The translations under genes were made by a program, and so were the position numbers. A model generated the notes under the pieces. The model was given only the letters and a program-made list of their open reading frames with translations, had not been told where the DNA came from and made no database searches. DNA of 44,485 nt from a virus: IMG/VR virus record IMGVR_UViG_3300028030_000023, positions 1-44,485 of that record. The stretch is one strand, 5' to 3'. Shown here piece after piece: positions 1,723 through 31,000 of this stretch. The stretch's first letter is position 1. Every line of letters starts with the position of its first letter.

Positions 1723-1739
1723 AAAATGTTAAACATTAA
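1723..1739. promoter_or_regulatory. Operator palindrome AATGTT-W-AACATT, copy 1
   Basis: AAAATGTTAAACATTAA, with the perfect 13-bp dyad at 1725-1737. The same 17-mer occurs at 9407-9423 and, with one base changed at the centre, at 15588-15604. This copy overlaps the last codon and stop of the primase gene beside the candidate origin. Confidence 0.6.
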
Positions 1740-3874
1740 ACCTCATATCCACGACTCATTTTCAACACAAAACTTTTTTCTTTAGTTAAGTACGGTTTTA
1801 CAAAATGTGCAACAACTAAGCGTGTTGAAATAACCTCTACCTTTTTACCAAGACTAACAGCATATAGATTTGTTAGCAAACTGTTAGTCCAAAATCTACT
1901 TTTAAAAGCCTTTTCAAGTTCTTTCAAATCTATCTCTAAAGTATCCTCATCCAAACCTAAAAAGTCTTTCATATCATCTACAGTACCATTTTTAATGATG
2001 TTTGCCAACTTTACAAGAGGTGATGATGTCTGCTCAGAAACTGCAATCTTAGCCTCAGATGCTTCCATAGGTCTGGTAGCTTTTCTAATATCAACCTCAA
2101 ACTTCATCAACCAAACACCGAACTCATAACTCTTTTCAAGTATCTTATCACCTGTCACACCAACTTCAAACCATTTGCAATCCTTTAGGGGTTTTTGAGC
2201 TTCAATCATATTCCATCTTCTATCATCCATATCGAGTTCAAGAGGATTATGTTTGTTACTGTTCAAAATCACATTACAATAATTTCTACAATTCACAGCA
2301 GCTATACCTTTTCTATTTATAAGAACAGTATCATCTGTTGTGAAAGCTTTTATCTTACCTGCCACACCGTGACGACCGTGAAAGTCAGATGCAATCTCAT
2401 TAAGTTGCAGGAACATAGTTTCGTGGAGATACTCATTGAAATCTGATTGTAAAGCCGCGTCACCAACATTCATACTTGCATTTTTATGACCTACCAAGCG
2501 CATCATAATATCTGATATTATCCCCTTACCTGTACCCGACGCACCATAAAAAGCCCAAGCCACCCCTGTCTTCCTATGTGTCTGCACAATGTACGCCATC
2601 CAATGCAAGAAATATTCCTTAGCTTCAGGCTGCGATAAAAAGAGATTGTCTAACAACTTATTAATCAGTTTAGGTATCTTTTTACCTTTTGCTTTCTCAT
2701 AACTTACAGGTGTGTAAGAGTTTATAGCCGGATTACCATTCTCATCCATTATATCTCTCCCAGCCATATCAGGAGCATATATCAAACGCTTTACAGGTAC
2801 AGTGTGTAATAGTTCAGAAACTTCGGACGGCTTCATATACCCGCTTGCACTCATAACCACCTGTGTGAAATTAGATTTTGGATAACGTACTATTGATGTT
2901 TCACGTACCTCACAGTATTCACCGGTTAAAGGGTCGAAGATTATATCACCCTCAAAGAATGAAGATAATCCACTTCCACCACTTTTGGCTTCTGCAAGTA
3001 TCTCTTTTTGAGTACCGATACTGACTTTTAATTTCTGTTTGATTTGTTTCATAACGCGCTCTAATTCTAAAGCCCCTCCACGCTCAGCTTTCACAAGCAT
3101 ATCACGCACTTCGCTATCATCAAAATCACCGCCAATCTCTTCAGGTTCAGAAGTTGGAACACTTTTTGCTTTCTCCAACTTATTTCTAAGGTGATACTTG
3201 TAACCGTCCTTGATACGCGCCATCATCAGCTTCATTTCACGTGGTGTACCGCCCAAGTAGCGCTCGACATATTCAATTCCATTCGCAACGACCTCATCGT
3301 AACTTAGACCTGCTGCAAAATCTTTTCCAATATATGAAAGTGTACCGTCGTGGATGCCTCCTTTTTCAATACGCTCCCATTGCCCGCGTTTCTTAGCGAC
3401 TTTACTTTTAATTTCCATAAGTTCACGTAAGCGCTTCTCCAATTTCTTTGGCATCTTTTTATAAATCTTACCGGTTTCTTTATAAGATATGTTTTTATCT
3501 TTACCAATATATTTTGCAAATATCAAACCACCGTCAGACCTAACGTCAATGAGTTCTGAGTATGATGCCTTATTGACAAATTCATTTGAGCGTTTGAAAT
3601 TGAAATAGTAGTGATAACCACGCTTAGTTGTGACTGTCGGTGTAAGTTTTTTAAGTTCCTCACCGATTATCTTATCAATCTCATCGAGGTTCTTTGTGTC
3701 AACATCAACAACAACAAGCCCCTTACCTGTTTTGAAACCTATTGTGTTTGCTTCTTCGCGCTGTATTTCACCCCAATACTTTCCAAAGCTTGTGGTTTTT
3801 TTATTCGTTTGTTTATCCCACCCCACTTTAGCATAGATTATTCTATCGGATAAATCATTGAGTTTTTTATACAT
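1736..3874 (-). CDS. Primase-helicase: Prim-Pol domain fused to a P4/D5-type SF3-like helicase
   Basis: A 712-residue replication protein expected to prime and unwind DNA at the phage fork. N-terminal archaeo-eukaryotic primase (Prim-Pol) signs: the metal-binding DVD at about 57-59, KRGYHYYF at 84-91, and DVRSDGG at 110-116. The C-terminal half carries a P-loop GASGTGKG at about 444-451, a Walker B-like MFLQLNEI near 487-494, and a downstream NSNKHNPLELDMDDRRW stretch typical of phage/plasmid D5-type (DUF5906-like) ATPases. The ATG at 3874 follows TAGGA with good spacing. It lies downstream of the RHH regulator gene, and a structured non-coding segment separates the two. No second replicative helicase is recognised, so this is probably the main one. 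Confidence 0.88.
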   Translation of the reverse strand: MYKKLNDLSDRIIYAKVGWDKQTNKKTTSFGKYWGEIQREEANTIGFKTGKGLVVVDVDTKNLDEIDKIIGEELKKLTPTVTTKRGYHYYFNFKRSNEFVNKASYSELIDVRSDGGLIFAKYIGKDKNISYKETGKIYKKMPKKLEKRLRELMEIKSKVAKKRGQWERIEKGGIHDGTLSYIGKDFAAGLSYDEVVANGIEYVERYLGGTPREMKLMMARIKDGYKYHLRNKLEKAKSVPTSEPEEIGGDFDDSEVRDMLVKAERGGALELERVMKQIKQKLKVSIGTQKEILAEAKSGGSGLSSFFEGDIIFDPLTGEYCEVRETSIVRYPKSNFTQVVMSASGYMKPSEVSELLHTVPVKRLIYAPDMAGRDIMDENGNPAINSYTPVSYEKAKGKKIPKLINKLLDNLFLSQPEAKEYFLHWMAYIVQTHRKTGVAWAFYGASGTGKGIISDIMMRLVGHKNASMNVGDAALQSDFNEYLHETMFLQLNEIASDFHGRHGVAGKIKAFTTDDTVLINRKGIAAVNCRNYCNVILNSNKHNPLELDMDDRRWNMIEAQKPLKDCKWFEVGVTGDKILEKSYEFGVWLMKFEVDIRKATRPMEASEAKIAVSEQTSSPLVKLANIIKNGTVDDMKDFLGLDEDTLEIDLKELEKAFKSRFWTNSLLTNLYAVSLGKKVEVISTRLVVAHFVKPYLTKEKSFVLKMSRGYEV

Positions 3875-3920
3875 TCAAATCCTAGACTTTTTTAAATTTA
3901 AGGGTGAGCTATTTTTGAAA

Positions 3921-4040
3921 GCGTCCATTTTTCAACAACTCCTTGTAAACCCTTATGAGAGCCAATCACTAAGGCGTTGAGGAAATGGACGTAACCTGTA
4001 ACTTCAGCGGATTGACTCACATAAGAGCTCGCGTGCGAGC
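3921..4040 (-). ncRNA. Structured segment with interleaved inverted repeats upstream of the primase
   Basis: Two long inverted repeats interleave. Stem A pairs CGTCCATTT (3922-3930) with AAATGGACG (3983-3991) and is extended by CAAC/GTTG. Stem B pairs 16-base arms at 3952-3967 and 4010-4025. The arms cross, so A and B can only form together as a pseudoknot or else exclude each other. A small hairpin CCTTA/TAAGG (3951-3955/3970-3974) fits inside A and competes with B. A short strong hairpin GCTCGC/GCGAGC follows at 4027-4040. Of the two non-Watson-Crick positions in B, one becomes a G-U pair only in a minus-strand RNA. That favours a transcript from the RHH promoter, i.e. a leader of the primase gene. 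A DNA role (cruciform, origin) is an alternative. Confidence 0.5.
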
Positions 4041-4045
4041 CCCTT

Positions 4046-4210
4046 TTAACGTTTTTTCTTATCCTCTTTATAGAGAAATCGCAAGTATCGGCTCATCGTA
4101 ACACCAATCTCTTCACAATGTTTTTTAAGTTCATCGTGTTCTTCAGGAGTGAATTTCACCCCAACCATCTTTGTTCTGCGTTGATTTTCAAAGTTTTCAA
4201 CAGTTGCCAT
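4046..4210 (-). CDS. Small ribbon-helix-helix (Arc/CopG-like) regulator
   Basis: A 54-residue basic protein. The pattern VGVKFTPEEHDELKKHCEEIG followed by VTMSRYLRFLYKEDKKKR fits the ribbon-helix-helix fold: one short beta strand, then two helices. Such proteins bind palindromic operators as dimers. The ATG at 4210 is chosen over upstream in-frame ATGs because a perfect sigma-70 promoter (4241-4269) lies between them, and AAAGGTG precedes this ATG. The promoter spacer contains a partial copy of the AATGTTTAA operator, so autoregulation is likely. It faces the plus-strand replication block across a divergent control region of about 100 bp and is the best candidate for the regulator of the promoter network. 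Confidence 0.75.
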   Translation of the reverse strand: MATVENFENQRRTKMVGVKFTPEEHDELKKHCEEIGVTMSRYLRFLYKEDKKKR

Positions 4211-4240
4211 AACCACACCTTTATATAAATATGTAAGCGT

Positions 4241-4269
4241 ATTATAGTAGAGATTAAACATTTTGTCAA
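4241..4269 (-). promoter_or_regulatory. Consensus sigma-70 promoter of the RHH gene
   Basis: Reading leftward: TTGACA (4264-4269), 17-bp spacer, TATAAT (4241-4246). Both hexamers are perfect matches. The spacer holds AAAATGTTTAAT (complement of 4253-4264), also present in the spacer of the terS promoter. A predicted start near 4234 gives a leader of about 24 nt. Confidence 0.9.
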
Positions 4270-4290
4270 GCCTTTTGATAAACAAATCGT

Positions 4291-4336: not shown

Positions 4337-4360
4337 GACAAATTGTCGAACAAATTGTCA
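4337..4360 (+). repeat. Tandem 12-bp operator-like repeat at the P1 start site
   Basis: GACAAATTGTCG (4337-4348) is followed directly by AACAAATTGTCA (4349-4360). The first copy with the preceding C is a perfect dyad, CGACAA-A-TTGTCG. The repeats cover the first 30 bp of the P1 transcript, a position typical for a repressor site. Confidence 0.6.
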
Positions 4361-4386
4361 AGCAAATAACTTTAAAGGACTCTAAA

Positions 4387-6006: not shown

Positions 6007-6186
6007 ATGAATTTTCCCAACCCCTTGTCTTCAGTAAACGTACAACAACACCCTCCATCCACCTCTCAAAGAAGTGTCAAAGATGGAGGTCATATCTTGT
6101 GGTCTCTGATGGGAGAGCGGTCTTTTCCAGCCGTGTGGCTTCGATGCCACCCACAAGTCCTTATTTTAATCTCACATTCTCCTTAA
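6007..6186 (+). CDS. Possible 59-residue leader ORF, atypical composition
   Basis: This ORF starts 20 nt after the predicted P2 start site and follows a good ribosome binding site (AGGGAGAGG, 7 nt from the ATG). The product would be rich in Pro, Ser, His and Trp and has almost no Lys, unlike every neighbour. The same bases form a strong hairpin and a tRNA-like fold. So the ORF may be a leader peptide, or may be fortuitous within a structured RNA. No homologue is recognised. Confidence 0.35.
   Translation: MNFPNPLSSVNVQQHPPSTSQRSVKDGGHILWSLMGERSFPAVWLRCHPQVLILISHSP
6052..6089 (+). ncRNA. Strong hairpin in the P2 leader
   Basis: A perfect 8-bp stem, CCTCCATC (6052-6059) with GATGGAGG (6082-6089), continues inward as CACCTC/GAAGTG (one mismatch) closing a TCAAA loop. 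It ends seven bases before the tRNA-like fold. High stability in an AT-rich genome suggests selection on the RNA. Confidence 0.55.
6096..6158 (+). ncRNA. tRNA-like structure (non-canonical, about 63 nt)
   Basis: A perfect 7-bp acceptor-like stem pairs CTTGTGG (6096-6102) with CCACAAG (6151-6157). Inside are, in tRNA order: a D-arm-like CTC..GAG with a GGG-containing loop (6104-6117); a CGG/CCG arm with a long loop TCTTTTCCAG (6118-6133); and a T-arm-like GTGGC-TTCGAT-GCCAC (6135-6150) abutting the acceptor strand. The base after the acceptor is T, followed by CC. Deviations from a working tRNA: only one base before the D-arm, a 3-bp anticodon-like stem, almost no variable region, and a 6-nt T-loop. 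It may be a decayed tRNA, a tRNA mimic or a regulatory RNA. Confidence 0.45.
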
Positions 6187-6454
6187 AGGTTTTTGCTTGA
6201 ACCTTGTATGTGTGTGTTTATCTATTTGACGGGTCTTTGAATTACCTGTCATCGCGCAACTTCTTCCCTCTTGTCAGGTTTACCCTATTTCCCTGATGAG
6301 AGGGTCTTTAAATTAATTCAAATCTTCTTAGGATGGTTTTGATTAGTTTAAGATTACAGAACTTTTGACTTTTGGTGAACCGTCATTTTGTGGAACGGAA
6401 ATAAAATCCAAATTCGTCAAAAAATCTTAAATGATTATTTAAAGGACTTACAAA
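6187..6454 (+). other. Remaining non-coding P2 leader
   Basis: No gene of credible quality is seen up to the methyltransferase ATG. It holds further short inverted repeats: AAGGTT/AACCTT near 6186-6205, ACCTG/CAGGT near 6252-6288, a CCCT/AGGG hairpin near 6300, and AATCTT/AAGATT near 6320-6357. None is followed by a clear U-run, so none is called a terminator. Parts are richer in GC than the neighbouring genes, which supports RNA structure. Confidence 0.4.
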
Positions 6455-7183
6455 ATGAATGTACTATCATTATTCGATGGTTTGTCAGGTGGAAGAATTG
6501 CATTAAAGCGTGCTAAAATAAATGTTAAAACTTATTATAGTAGCGAAATTGATAAATATGCAATACAAATTGCTAATAAAAATTACCCACAGGATAGTAA
6601 ATATCGCTTAGGTGATGTTACAAAACTTAGTAAAAAACAATTAAAAAAGCTTAATATAGATTTGCTTATTGGTGGCTCACCTTGTCAAGGATTTTCAATG
6701 ATAGGTAAACTACAAGGCAGTTCAACAAAAAATGGTATTGAGGTTACAACATTAAAACAATATAAAAAACTTAAAAAACAAGGTTTTGAGTTTGATGGTC
6801 AATCATATTTATTTTGGGAGTTTATTAGAATTCTGCATATTGTTAAACCTAAGTATTTTATGTTGGAAAACGTAAGAGTTACTAAAAAATGGCTACCTAT
6901 GTTTAATACAGCATTGGGTTGTGAGCCTATATTTATAAACAGTAATTTAGTATCTGCTCAGAATAGACCGCGTTTTTATTGGACTAATATACCTATGAAA
7001 AAAATGCCTAAAAATAAAGGTATTTTATTGAAAGATATTTTATTGAAAGATATTGAAATGAGTTTACCTCTCCCACAACACTTTACTAAAACTTTTGATG
7101 GAATTAGCAGATTAGACAAAGGGTTATTTTCAGATACAAGTAACGATAAAGCTTGTTGTTTATCAACAGGGAGTACACATTAG
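6455..7183 (+). CDS. C5-cytosine DNA methyltransferase, N-terminal part (motifs I-VIII)
   Basis: 242 residues of a DNA cytosine-5 methyltransferase, which may shield phage DNA from host restriction. Motif I LFDGLSGG (6-13), the catalytic PCQGFS with nucleophile Cys77, ENV (138-140) and QNRPRFYW (169-176) are all intact. The coding frame stops at a TAG (7181-7183) in the target-recognition region, and the missing motifs IX-X continue in the same frame at 7220-7414. Only 12 sense codons, with no further stop, separate the TAG from that ATG. Either an amber mutation broke the gene, or two chains assemble as in split enzymes such as M.AquI, or the TAG is read through. ATG at 6455 follows AAAGGAC. 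Confidence 0.85.
   Translation: MNVLSLFDGLSGGRIALKRAKINVKTYYSSEIDKYAIQIANKNYPQDSKYRLGDVTKLSKKQLKKLNIDLLIGGSPCQGFSMIGKLQGSSTKNGIEVTTLKQYKKLKKQGFEFDGQSYLFWEFIRILHIVKPKYFMLENVRVTKKWLPMFNTALGCEPIFINSNLVSAQNRPRFYWTNIPMKKMPKNKGILLKDILLKDIEMSLPLPQHFTKTFDGISRLDKGLFSDTSNDKACCLSTGSTH
7021..7050 (+). repeat. Exact 15-bp tandem duplication in the methyltransferase
   Basis: TATTTTATTGAAAGA occurs twice in tandem (7021-7035 and 7036-7050) in the target-recognition region, doubling the residues LLKDI in frame. It looks like recent replication slippage. Confidence 0.8.
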
Positions 7184-7219: not shown

Positions 7220-7414
7220 ATGGCTAGTGTGGTTATTGACGAAACCAAAACCGAATATCTATATAGAAAAATAACACCACTTGAATGTGAAAGATTGCAA
7301 ACTTTACCAGAAAATTATACAGAGGGTGTATCAAATACACAAAGATACAAAATGATAGGTAATGGTTGGACTATTAATGTAGTGCAACATATATTTAAAG
7401 GACTTAAAAAATGA
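7220..7414 (+). CDS. C5-cytosine DNA methyltransferase, C-terminal part (motifs IX-X)
   Basis: 64 residues carrying the end of the same enzyme: RKITPLECERLQTLPENYTE (motif IX region) and RYKMIGNGWTINVVQHIF (motif X, SAM binding). It is in the same frame as the upstream part (7220 minus 6455 is divisible by 3). Its own ATG is preceded by GGTGG, a mediocre ribosome binding site, so separate translation is possible. The C-terminus overlaps the DNA polymerase start by 4 bp, the tight packing of a living gene. Without motif X on the same chain or in trans, the N-terminal part should be inactive. Confidence 0.75.
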   Translation: MASVVIDETKTEYLYRKITPLECERLQTLPENYTEGVSNTQRYKMIGNGWTINVVQHIFKGLKK

Positions 7415-28047: not shown

Positions 28048-31000
28048 ATCAACACCTCAATATTTGTATAAAAATACTCAGCACCATCGTACAGCGGTGT
28101 AAATTCTAAATATTTTTTAGTTAAATCAAATTTCATATATTCAAAACTACCATCATCGAAAATTATCTTATGAACCCCAACAGCAGAAAGAGTTTTTAGT
28201 TGATTTACGACAACTTTATTTAACATTATAACATTATTACTCATAATTTTGTAGGGTCTCGAAAATTGTTTTTTAGGTAACACAGAATAAACAGTCGAAC
28301 CATCTAACATTTTAGTTGATGCAGCACTAAATGTATGTGTAACTAAATTTTGTTCCCATAACATTTTCTCATTAAAAGTAACTAAGCCTATCGACACAAC
28401 TCTCTTGTCTTTGTACGGTTGTGCAACACTTGATGTTACTACGGCAGTAAGTCCAAAAGAGTTCGGAAATACTCTGCTCCACAATGGCTCGTCTGTCTTC
28501 GTGATTTGTAATAGTAGTGACGGTGCTTTTACGTAAACATTCTCTCTTGTTTTTAAATACAACGGTACTATTCTCAACATAATTGACTGAGCCATTACCG
28601 TCGGATAAGTCAGTGTTGTGCCTGCTGTAAAAGCTCCAACATAGTTTGGTGTAATAACATCTAAAAAGTTTAATGTTGGGTACGGTGTGATTATTTGTGG
28701 AGCTGTTATATAATTCAAATCATCAAAAGTCAAATCTTGTAATGATTTTATTTCATCAATAGTCAATCCCCCATCCCAACCACGAACCATATTTATACTA
28801 CCTTTAAAGTGATAAACTGTATTATTTAAGTTTGCACCAATTCTTACAATTTTTGGTGAGTAATCAAATGACGGAACACTTCCTGCAAACGCACCATTTA
28901 TATAAACATCAGTTCCATTATTTAATACAAAATGATAAAATGAATTGAAATTTATTTTTACATTTGTTAAAATACCCTCATTCCCCTGAACATAATACCC
29001 CACATATCCATCACTATTTATATAAATATAAAATTCATAAATACCATCAGAATTTTGCTTACATAATAAAACATTTTTTTCTGTTGATGTTATCACATCA
29101 CATTTAAAACGCATATACGATGTATGACTATTATTTGAGTTGAAGTATATTGATGGTGTTATGTGTGATGTTGTACCGTTAAATATAGCATAGTTATACC
29201 CATCATTACCACTATTATCAGTAGAAAAAGTTATATCAACACCTGACCCATCCTTACCAAAAGCTTTATCTGTAAAGTCAGAATATAAAGGGTGAAATGT
29301 GTTTACTGTTGCCGATACAGGATTTGTCGGAGCAGGTTGTATATCAACATATCCTGTGACACGAACTTCTAACATTGTTGAAATAACCATCATAAAACCC
29401 TCAGTGTATATAATTGGCTCATTTAAAACTATATTGACTTTATAATTAAAATAATCAATAGCTAAATTTGGTGTCGCATAAGATTTATTCATTCCTATAA
29501 AAAACATATTTGGAATTGGTTGCTCATATAAGCTGTATTTTATAGGGTTTGTAACCTCAATAAAGAAACTACTTGTTTTTTCTAATACAATTATTGTTCC
29601 TTGTGACAATGGTATTAATTGTTCTATGACCAATGAGTACAAAACAGCATTTATAGTAGAGCTTGTTTTTACATTTACATCATATTGATTAGAAACTATC
29701 TCGTTTATAAACGCAACGACAGTCTTAGGTATAGACACAACAACATCATAATTTACTACTTCTATAAATATTGAATTTGGGTAAATTATAGGTGCTTGTA
29801 TTGTTGGGGTTTCAAGCGTAATGTTTATATCAATTATATTTGCTTCAATTAGTTTAGGAAGAGAAACTGACACAATATTTACGGCACTATCTATTGATAA
29901 ACTGTTTGGAAAAATGATTGGTTCCTGTACTTTTGATTGCAATAGTGTTATATCTAATGTCAATAACTCACTATGTGTCACAAATTTATACGTCGGCTCT
30001 AGTAACGTTGATGTGATTGTGTTTAAATCTGCACTAACCAATCCGCCTTTTACAAAATCATCTGTTCTTAGCTTTTCAATCTCTGCGTCGGTTAAGACCC
30101 TATCCCATACACAAATATCCGAAACGTAATCTACGTTGCTCTCTGAGTAAAACTCTATCTTTTTCGTGTTGTCGAAGTCTATCGTCTGACCAGTCAAATT
30201 TATCATCTGCGTACCGTTACGAGTAACCCGTATAGTACCGTCTGATTTGATAGTCATAGCGATATGTTGCCACTCTTCCCAAGTCTCAACTATCTCGTTT
30301 AGCCAATAGTATGTAGTGCCGATTTGGAATGTGTACTTAGGCACTCCACTACTATCACGCCAACCGACACCAAATGCCTTTGCAACAAAGTGACCGCCTA
30401 GAGATACAGACCCTTTCGCTATCGTTCCAGAAATATCTGGTTTAATCCAGAATGTAAGAGTAGCGTCATCTGCACCGCTAAACGGTTGATTATTTTGAGA
30501 GTATTGGTGCCCGCTATTCCCTTGCAGAGAATTTAGGCTATATGGCGTGTTGTGGTCTTCTACTACGTTAGATAGTGAGCTGAATGTGTTTCCACCCTCA
30601 ACGCAGTCTATTATAGCGTCTCCCGTATCGTTGTCCGTGAAAGTCCACATAGCAACGTCTGAGTTATCTCCGAATGGATTATTACCTCTATTTAGCCAAC
30701 TCCATTGTGTTGTTGCTCTAGGTGTATAGATAGAAAGATTTATCACGTCTGGTTGAGCTATGTTTTCGGAAGCTCCTGCAAAGTTATCATTCATCAAATC
30801 TGATATTTCAGTTGATGTCAAAACCCTGTCAAATACAGTAATGTCTGTCCCATAAACATCTGTGTCGTTTGTGTAAAGTCGTACCTTTTGGGTTGCGTCT
30901 GTGTTGATGTCTGCTTTATGTGATGTTTGACTTGTGCCGTCTTTAAACCATTCCGCAGTAACACCGTCATAGGTCATAGAGAAGTAGTGATAATCTGTAT

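Follow-up and report, generated by a model that had tools for sequence, protein, structure and literature searches.

What occupies the short gap between the genes for a ribbon-helix-helix (RHH) protein and a primase in this virus: a switch-like RNA, a DNA element such as a replication origin, or structure that is not under selection? The window, meaning the whole virus record analyzed here (44,485 bases, G+C 36%), had drawn attention in a preliminary description because two inverted repeats in this gap cross each other, a layout read there as a pseudoknot or a pair of exclusive folds controlling primase expression, or else as an origin element.

The replication set of the window comprises a Prim-Pol/DUF5906 primase, a gp2.5-like SSB, a DNA polymerase, an exonuclease and a helicase. 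Among named phages, the best-covered match to the primase is in Nitratiruptor phage NrS-1 (30% over 56% of the protein), a similarity that makes a Campylobacterota host possible. The same replication module is found in two IMG/VR contigs, L001 and L003, and the order divergent unknown gene, RHH gene, hairpin, primase is common to all three. More distant primase relatives (L004-L009) gave partial, diverged matches; in L006, the sole one of these that was opened, the primase matches at 43% over 150 residues and the genes upstream are different. A pattern scan of 84,980 species genomes for primase relatives gave none that was confirmed.

Transcription is likely to run on the minus strand, as had been proposed: a sigma-70-type promoter without a single mismatch precedes the RHH gene (Table 1), and a TTGAC...TATACT-like match can be seen by eye at the corresponding position of L001 and L003. 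A search of the window found no terminator-like site between the RHH and primase genes; taken with the promoter, this gives no sign of the missing transcript that would speak against a leader RNA, and transcription probably crosses the gap.

Table 1. Features of the primase leader and of the gap after the SSB gene (window coordinates unless a contig is named).
Feature	Position	Strand	Remarks
Primase-polymerase/helicase (Prim-Pol + DUF5906)	1736..3874	-	Domain matches; 51% (L001) and 49% (L003) identical
Candidate upstream ORF, 17 codons, MDAFKNSSPLNLKKSRI	3875..3928	-	TGA abuts primase ATG (TGAATG); too short for coding score
Stem A, 3' arm in minus RNA, AAAUGGACG	3922..3930	-	Holds start codon of upstream ORF
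Shine-Dalgarno AAGGAG	3939..3944	-	10 nt before ATG at 3928; read from sequence
Competing hairpin (3966-3975/3949-3958)	3949..3975	-	Compatible with stem A, excludes stem B
Stem B, 3' arm in minus RNA	3952..3967	-	Repeat search; extendable to 3947
Stem A, 5' arm in minus RNA, CGUCCAUUU	3983..3991	-	In apical loop of extended stem B hairpin
Stem B, 5' arm in minus RNA	4010..4025	-	Repeat search
Hairpin after RHH stop, 9 bp, 4-nt loop	4023..4044	-	Directly behind RHH stop; U-run absent in minus RNA
RHH gene, 54 aa	4046..4210	-	Pfam NikA-like, E 4e-8; same-place homologues in L001, L003
Sigma-70-type promoter TTGACA-17-TATAAT	4241..4269	-	12/12 matches; predicted to drive RHH and, by read-through, primase leader
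Conserved ~100-aa ORF between RHH and primase	L001 4724-5020; L003 4706-5011		Missing from window
tRNA-like cloverleaf between SSB gene and next replication gene	6096-6157	+	Loose descriptor
tRNA-like cloverleaf, same place	L001 2703-2794	-	Loose descriptor
tRNA-like cloverleaf, same place	L003 2729-2802	-	Loose descriptor

Crossing repeats in the leader

The architecture first described is borne out in its parts. Stem A is present with 9 of 9 pairs and stem B with 14 of 16 Watson-Crick pairs, their coordinates are interleaved, the rival hairpin lies within the loop of A and is incompatible with B, and the hairpin beside the RHH stop codon exists. Stem B gains a G-U pair (3962/4015) in minus-strand RNA, where 15 of 16 positions are paired and one U-U mismatch (3958/4019) is left; with further G-U pairs it can extend to 3947-3967/4010-4030, a helix of 21 positions that, at a calculated stacking energy of -27.4, is the best in the leader. 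The post-RHH hairpin, the 3' arm of which runs into the three outermost pairs of stem B, likewise includes G-U pairs peculiar to minus RNA. A G-U pair confined to minus RNA had been offered as an argument for that strand; the pair is there, but the argument cuts both ways, as stem A is lengthened by two G-U pairs (3921-3932/3981-3992) in plus-strand RNA only.

How easily could such an arrangement arise without selection? The strongest rival to a functional leader, only a little less probable than the reading we favor, is that the structure is unselected and happens to lie in a short non-coding gap where the relatives carry a ~100-aa ORF, the primase using its own AGGA site. In local shuffles of a 176-nt stretch, a Watson-Crick crossing pair this good appeared in 1 of 3000, a figure that takes no account of the reader's choice from 44 kb; this low local chance speaks against an accident, as do the position in one of the few real gaps and the placing of one arm on a plausible start codon. 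Across the whole window, however, a minus-strand crossing pair at least as strong was found in 14% of shuffles (n=100, locally shuffled), and single repeats as good as these are frequent in it (about a dozen with a score of at least 10). The leader pair ranks second on the minus strand of the real window; the strongest crossing helix pair on that strand lies at 30356-30486, inside a coding region. The pseudoknot-free MFE z of the leader (-2.4 to -2.7) is ordinary for this phage, about 3-4% of its minus-strand stretches scoring as low. Given the whole-window frequency, the stronger pair elsewhere and the other stretches folding equally well, the crossing repeats are modestly better than chance: mildly unusual, not striking.

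Conservation also fits the chance reading. The crossing repeats are absent from both relatives found, L001 and L003, which keep the RHH gene, a hairpin (of other sequence, likewise after the RHH stop) and the primase; in place of the repeats is the ~100-aa ORF, 42% identical between the two, which leaves nothing there to covary. The leader was also considered as a decayed copy of this ORF and the idea rejected, no frame aligning better than shuffles. DNA similarity searches of the phage and plasmid collections with the leader gave no E-value below 0.2, and the exact stem B pattern was not found in viral contigs. The stem A pattern occurs there at seven places, five of them within long open frames and the other two in short stretches between genes, with no stem B sequence around any of the seven. 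No Rfam covariance model matched the leader at the gathering threshold, in agreement with the earlier statement that no known riboswitch or ribozyme class fits; weak matches to miRNA, snoRNA and sRNA families (E 1.3-7.3) were rejected as chance.

Forced folds give -49.0 with stem A only, -51.0 with stem B only and about -48 to -50 for the pseudoknot (assuming a penalty of 7.0 to 9.6 kcal/mol), all within ~3 kcal/mol. These gaps are within calculation error, and since the energies are indistinguishable, folding cannot show a switch: the calculations allow one and do not demonstrate it. The proposed control of the primase by a pseudoknot or exclusive folds thus has the layout right, and neither the energies nor the relatives lend support to its switching.

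A DNA-level element, such as a binding site or replication origin for the RHH protein, the primase or a recombinase, seems unlikely. In its favor, the RHH protein has a match to the family of the mobilization protein NikA, proteins that bind to inverted repeats in origins of transfer, and the gap adjoins replication genes and a strand switch. Against this, no relaxase was recognized by eye in the ORF lists, eight proteins having been scanned against Pfam, and the element is absent from relatives that retain the RHH gene. An origin in particular finds no support: no iterons were found, and the GC-skew change at ~4 kb coincides with, and is accounted for by, the change in gene direction. Likelier operators for the RHH protein are the TTGTCAAGC repeats at 4257-4271 and 4349-4363. 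The divergent promoter region (window 4338-4363 and 4257-4271) holds ACAAATTGTCGA/ACAAATTGTCAA and TTGTCAAGC repeats, which are possible RHH operators.

Least probable of all is a plus-strand small non-coding or antisense RNA ending at a hairpin followed by CCCCTTTT (4023-4046): stem A is longer in plus RNA and the hairpin is followed by T-rich sequence on that strand, but no promoter-like site lies upstream of the leader hairpins on the plus strand (only a weak 9/12 match at 4220-4248, reading away), no terminator was called, the hairpin is less stable as plus RNA, and the fold is little better than chance (z -1.3, vs -2.4 for minus RNA).

The primase start

New here is the observation that the 3' arm of stem A, AAAUGGACG, holds the ATG (3928) of a 17-codon ORF. 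The AAGGAG that precedes this ATG is spaced beyond the 5-9 nt allowed in the Shine-Dalgarno pattern search. In L001 and L003 the primase starts inside the end of the upstream ~98-101-aa ORF, and in NrS-1 a CII-like gene overlaps the primase start. Thus in all four phages examined (window, L001, L003, NrS-1) the primase start touches or overlaps an upstream frame, with differing partners, which suggests translational coupling at the primase start, the 17-codon frame being the putative partner in the window. The Shine-Dalgarno sequence of the primase itself is predicted to be paired (unpaired probability 0.05-0.3), in a weak local fold of -5.1 kcal/mol.

A 40-codon frame in the leader (4020-3898) was considered as a gene and is an unlikely one: by codon score it falls short of the 5th percentile of real genes, though it also exceeds the 95th percentile for non-coding frames, and a Shine-Dalgarno sequence is absent.

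Structure after the SSB gene

A tRNA-like cloverleaf after the SSB gene, common to three phages, is better supported than the primase leader element. Its outer stem has 7 bp and is joined directly by a T-like arm of 5 bp; the other arms are a D-like one and one whose loop has 8-14 nt. The loose descriptor used also picks out 10-25 of these shapes in every shuffled 44 kb (both strands), so that one match alone is not significant; the interest lies in three at the same place with stem sequences that differ among the window, L001 and L003. The L001 and L003 cloverleaves have the loop motif UUUnnACCCCUUU and the T-loop UGCAAAU in common, and that of L003 scores 26.2 bits against the Rfam tRNA model, just below the cut-off of 29 (E 0.0015). 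ARAGORN at default settings called no tRNA in the window.

The strongest fold z in the window scan (-5.26) also belongs to the gap that follows the SSB gene, before the next gene begins (6201-6350, plus strand). Two hairpins belong to it, one of 13 bp near 6265-6305 and an imperfect one of 12 bp near 6307-6355. Farther on, between the SSB and polymerase genes, is a cytosine-methyltransferase-like gene in two frames (6455-7183 and 7220-7414, plus strand); L001 and L003 have no gene at this place, and it may be an insertion, perhaps broken.

A tentative model for the leader

The reading we tentatively favor, unproven and with chance nearly as likely, is that of a lineage-specific structured leader in the RHH-primase mRNA, tuning primase translation by way of a coupled short ORF. 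The repeats, the promoter, the lack of a terminator-like site, the ORF geometry and the coupling-like overlap in relatives are directly seen; the RNA fold, translation of the 17-codon ORF and an effect of either on the primase are inferred. The model includes neither a ligand nor a trigger for switching. Transcription would start at the RHH promoter, with RNA running on through the leader. Stem B and its inward extension would form a long hairpin exposing CGUCCAUUU in its loop; this loop could then pair with the downstream AAAUGGACG as stem A, giving a pseudoknot in which the start codon of the 17-codon ORF would be buried. When that ORF is translated, ribosomes would stop at the TGA touching the primase ATG and so unfold the weak structure at the primase start; formation of stem A would lower both the coupling and the output of primase.

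Several features support such a leader: crossing repeats in a 171-nt gap, rare in local shuffles; minus RNA that folds better than plus; the perfect promoter; an AAGGAG with ATG, and an ORF end exactly at the primase ATG; a primase start region predicted to be paired; and the overlap with upstream ORFs in L001, L003 and NrS-1. It is weakened by the whole-window frequency of comparable pairs, by the many other stretches of this phage that fold more significantly, by absence from L001 and L003, by the plus-strand G-U preference of stem A, by the long Shine-Dalgarno spacing, and by energies that do not favor the pseudoknot. The more specific proposition, a phage primase under a pseudoknot that buries the start codon of a leader ORF, 17 codons long and coupled to the primase, is doubtful; to our knowledge, such control of a phage replication primase is known nowhere else.

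The nearest phage analogue is the autoregulatory pseudoknot of gene 32 in T4, T2 and RB69, which lies upstream of the start codon, is thought to govern translation, and has been lost in RB49 (PMC3014915); it is possibly the only viral mRNA pseudoknot in translational autoregulation (PMC3014915). As in T4, the crossing stems here lie upstream of the start of a phage replication gene, the primase, and, much as the T4 element is missing from RB49, this one is absent from the relatives L001 and L003. The T4 pseudoknot is bound by gp32 and precedes an SSB gene, with no upstream ORF involved, whereas the element in the window precedes a primase and has longer stems, a long inter-stem loop and no known binding protein.

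In the repZ leader of plasmid ColIb-P9, a hairpin loop pairs with downstream sequence near a coupled small ORF that precedes the replication protein gene; the resulting pseudoknot switches repZ on and is opposed by a competing antisense RNA. The window resembles this system in the proposed pairing of a hairpin loop with downstream sequence and in having a candidate small ORF, with its own if distantly spaced (10 nt) Shine-Dalgarno sequence, that ends at the start of the regulated gene. It differs in that the pairing would hide the start of the small ORF, and in that no antisense RNA was found. The repZ pseudoknot of ColIb-P9 (IncI-alpha) appears in the reference list of PMC10724649. The TGAATG of the window and the overlaps at the primase starts of L001, L003 and NrS-1 are also as in stop/start translational coupling; in the window the candidate upstream partner has only 17 codons. 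If real, the leader would work like that of T4 gene 32 or ColIb-P9 repZ, as an analogue rather than an established member of either.

If the arrangement is due to chance, it is a caution against taking crossing repeats seen in one genome for a switch. If the model is true, the primase would be a second kind of phage replication gene on the very short list of viral genes governed by an mRNA pseudoknot, and such control would have come to replace a coupled ORF in a single lineage.
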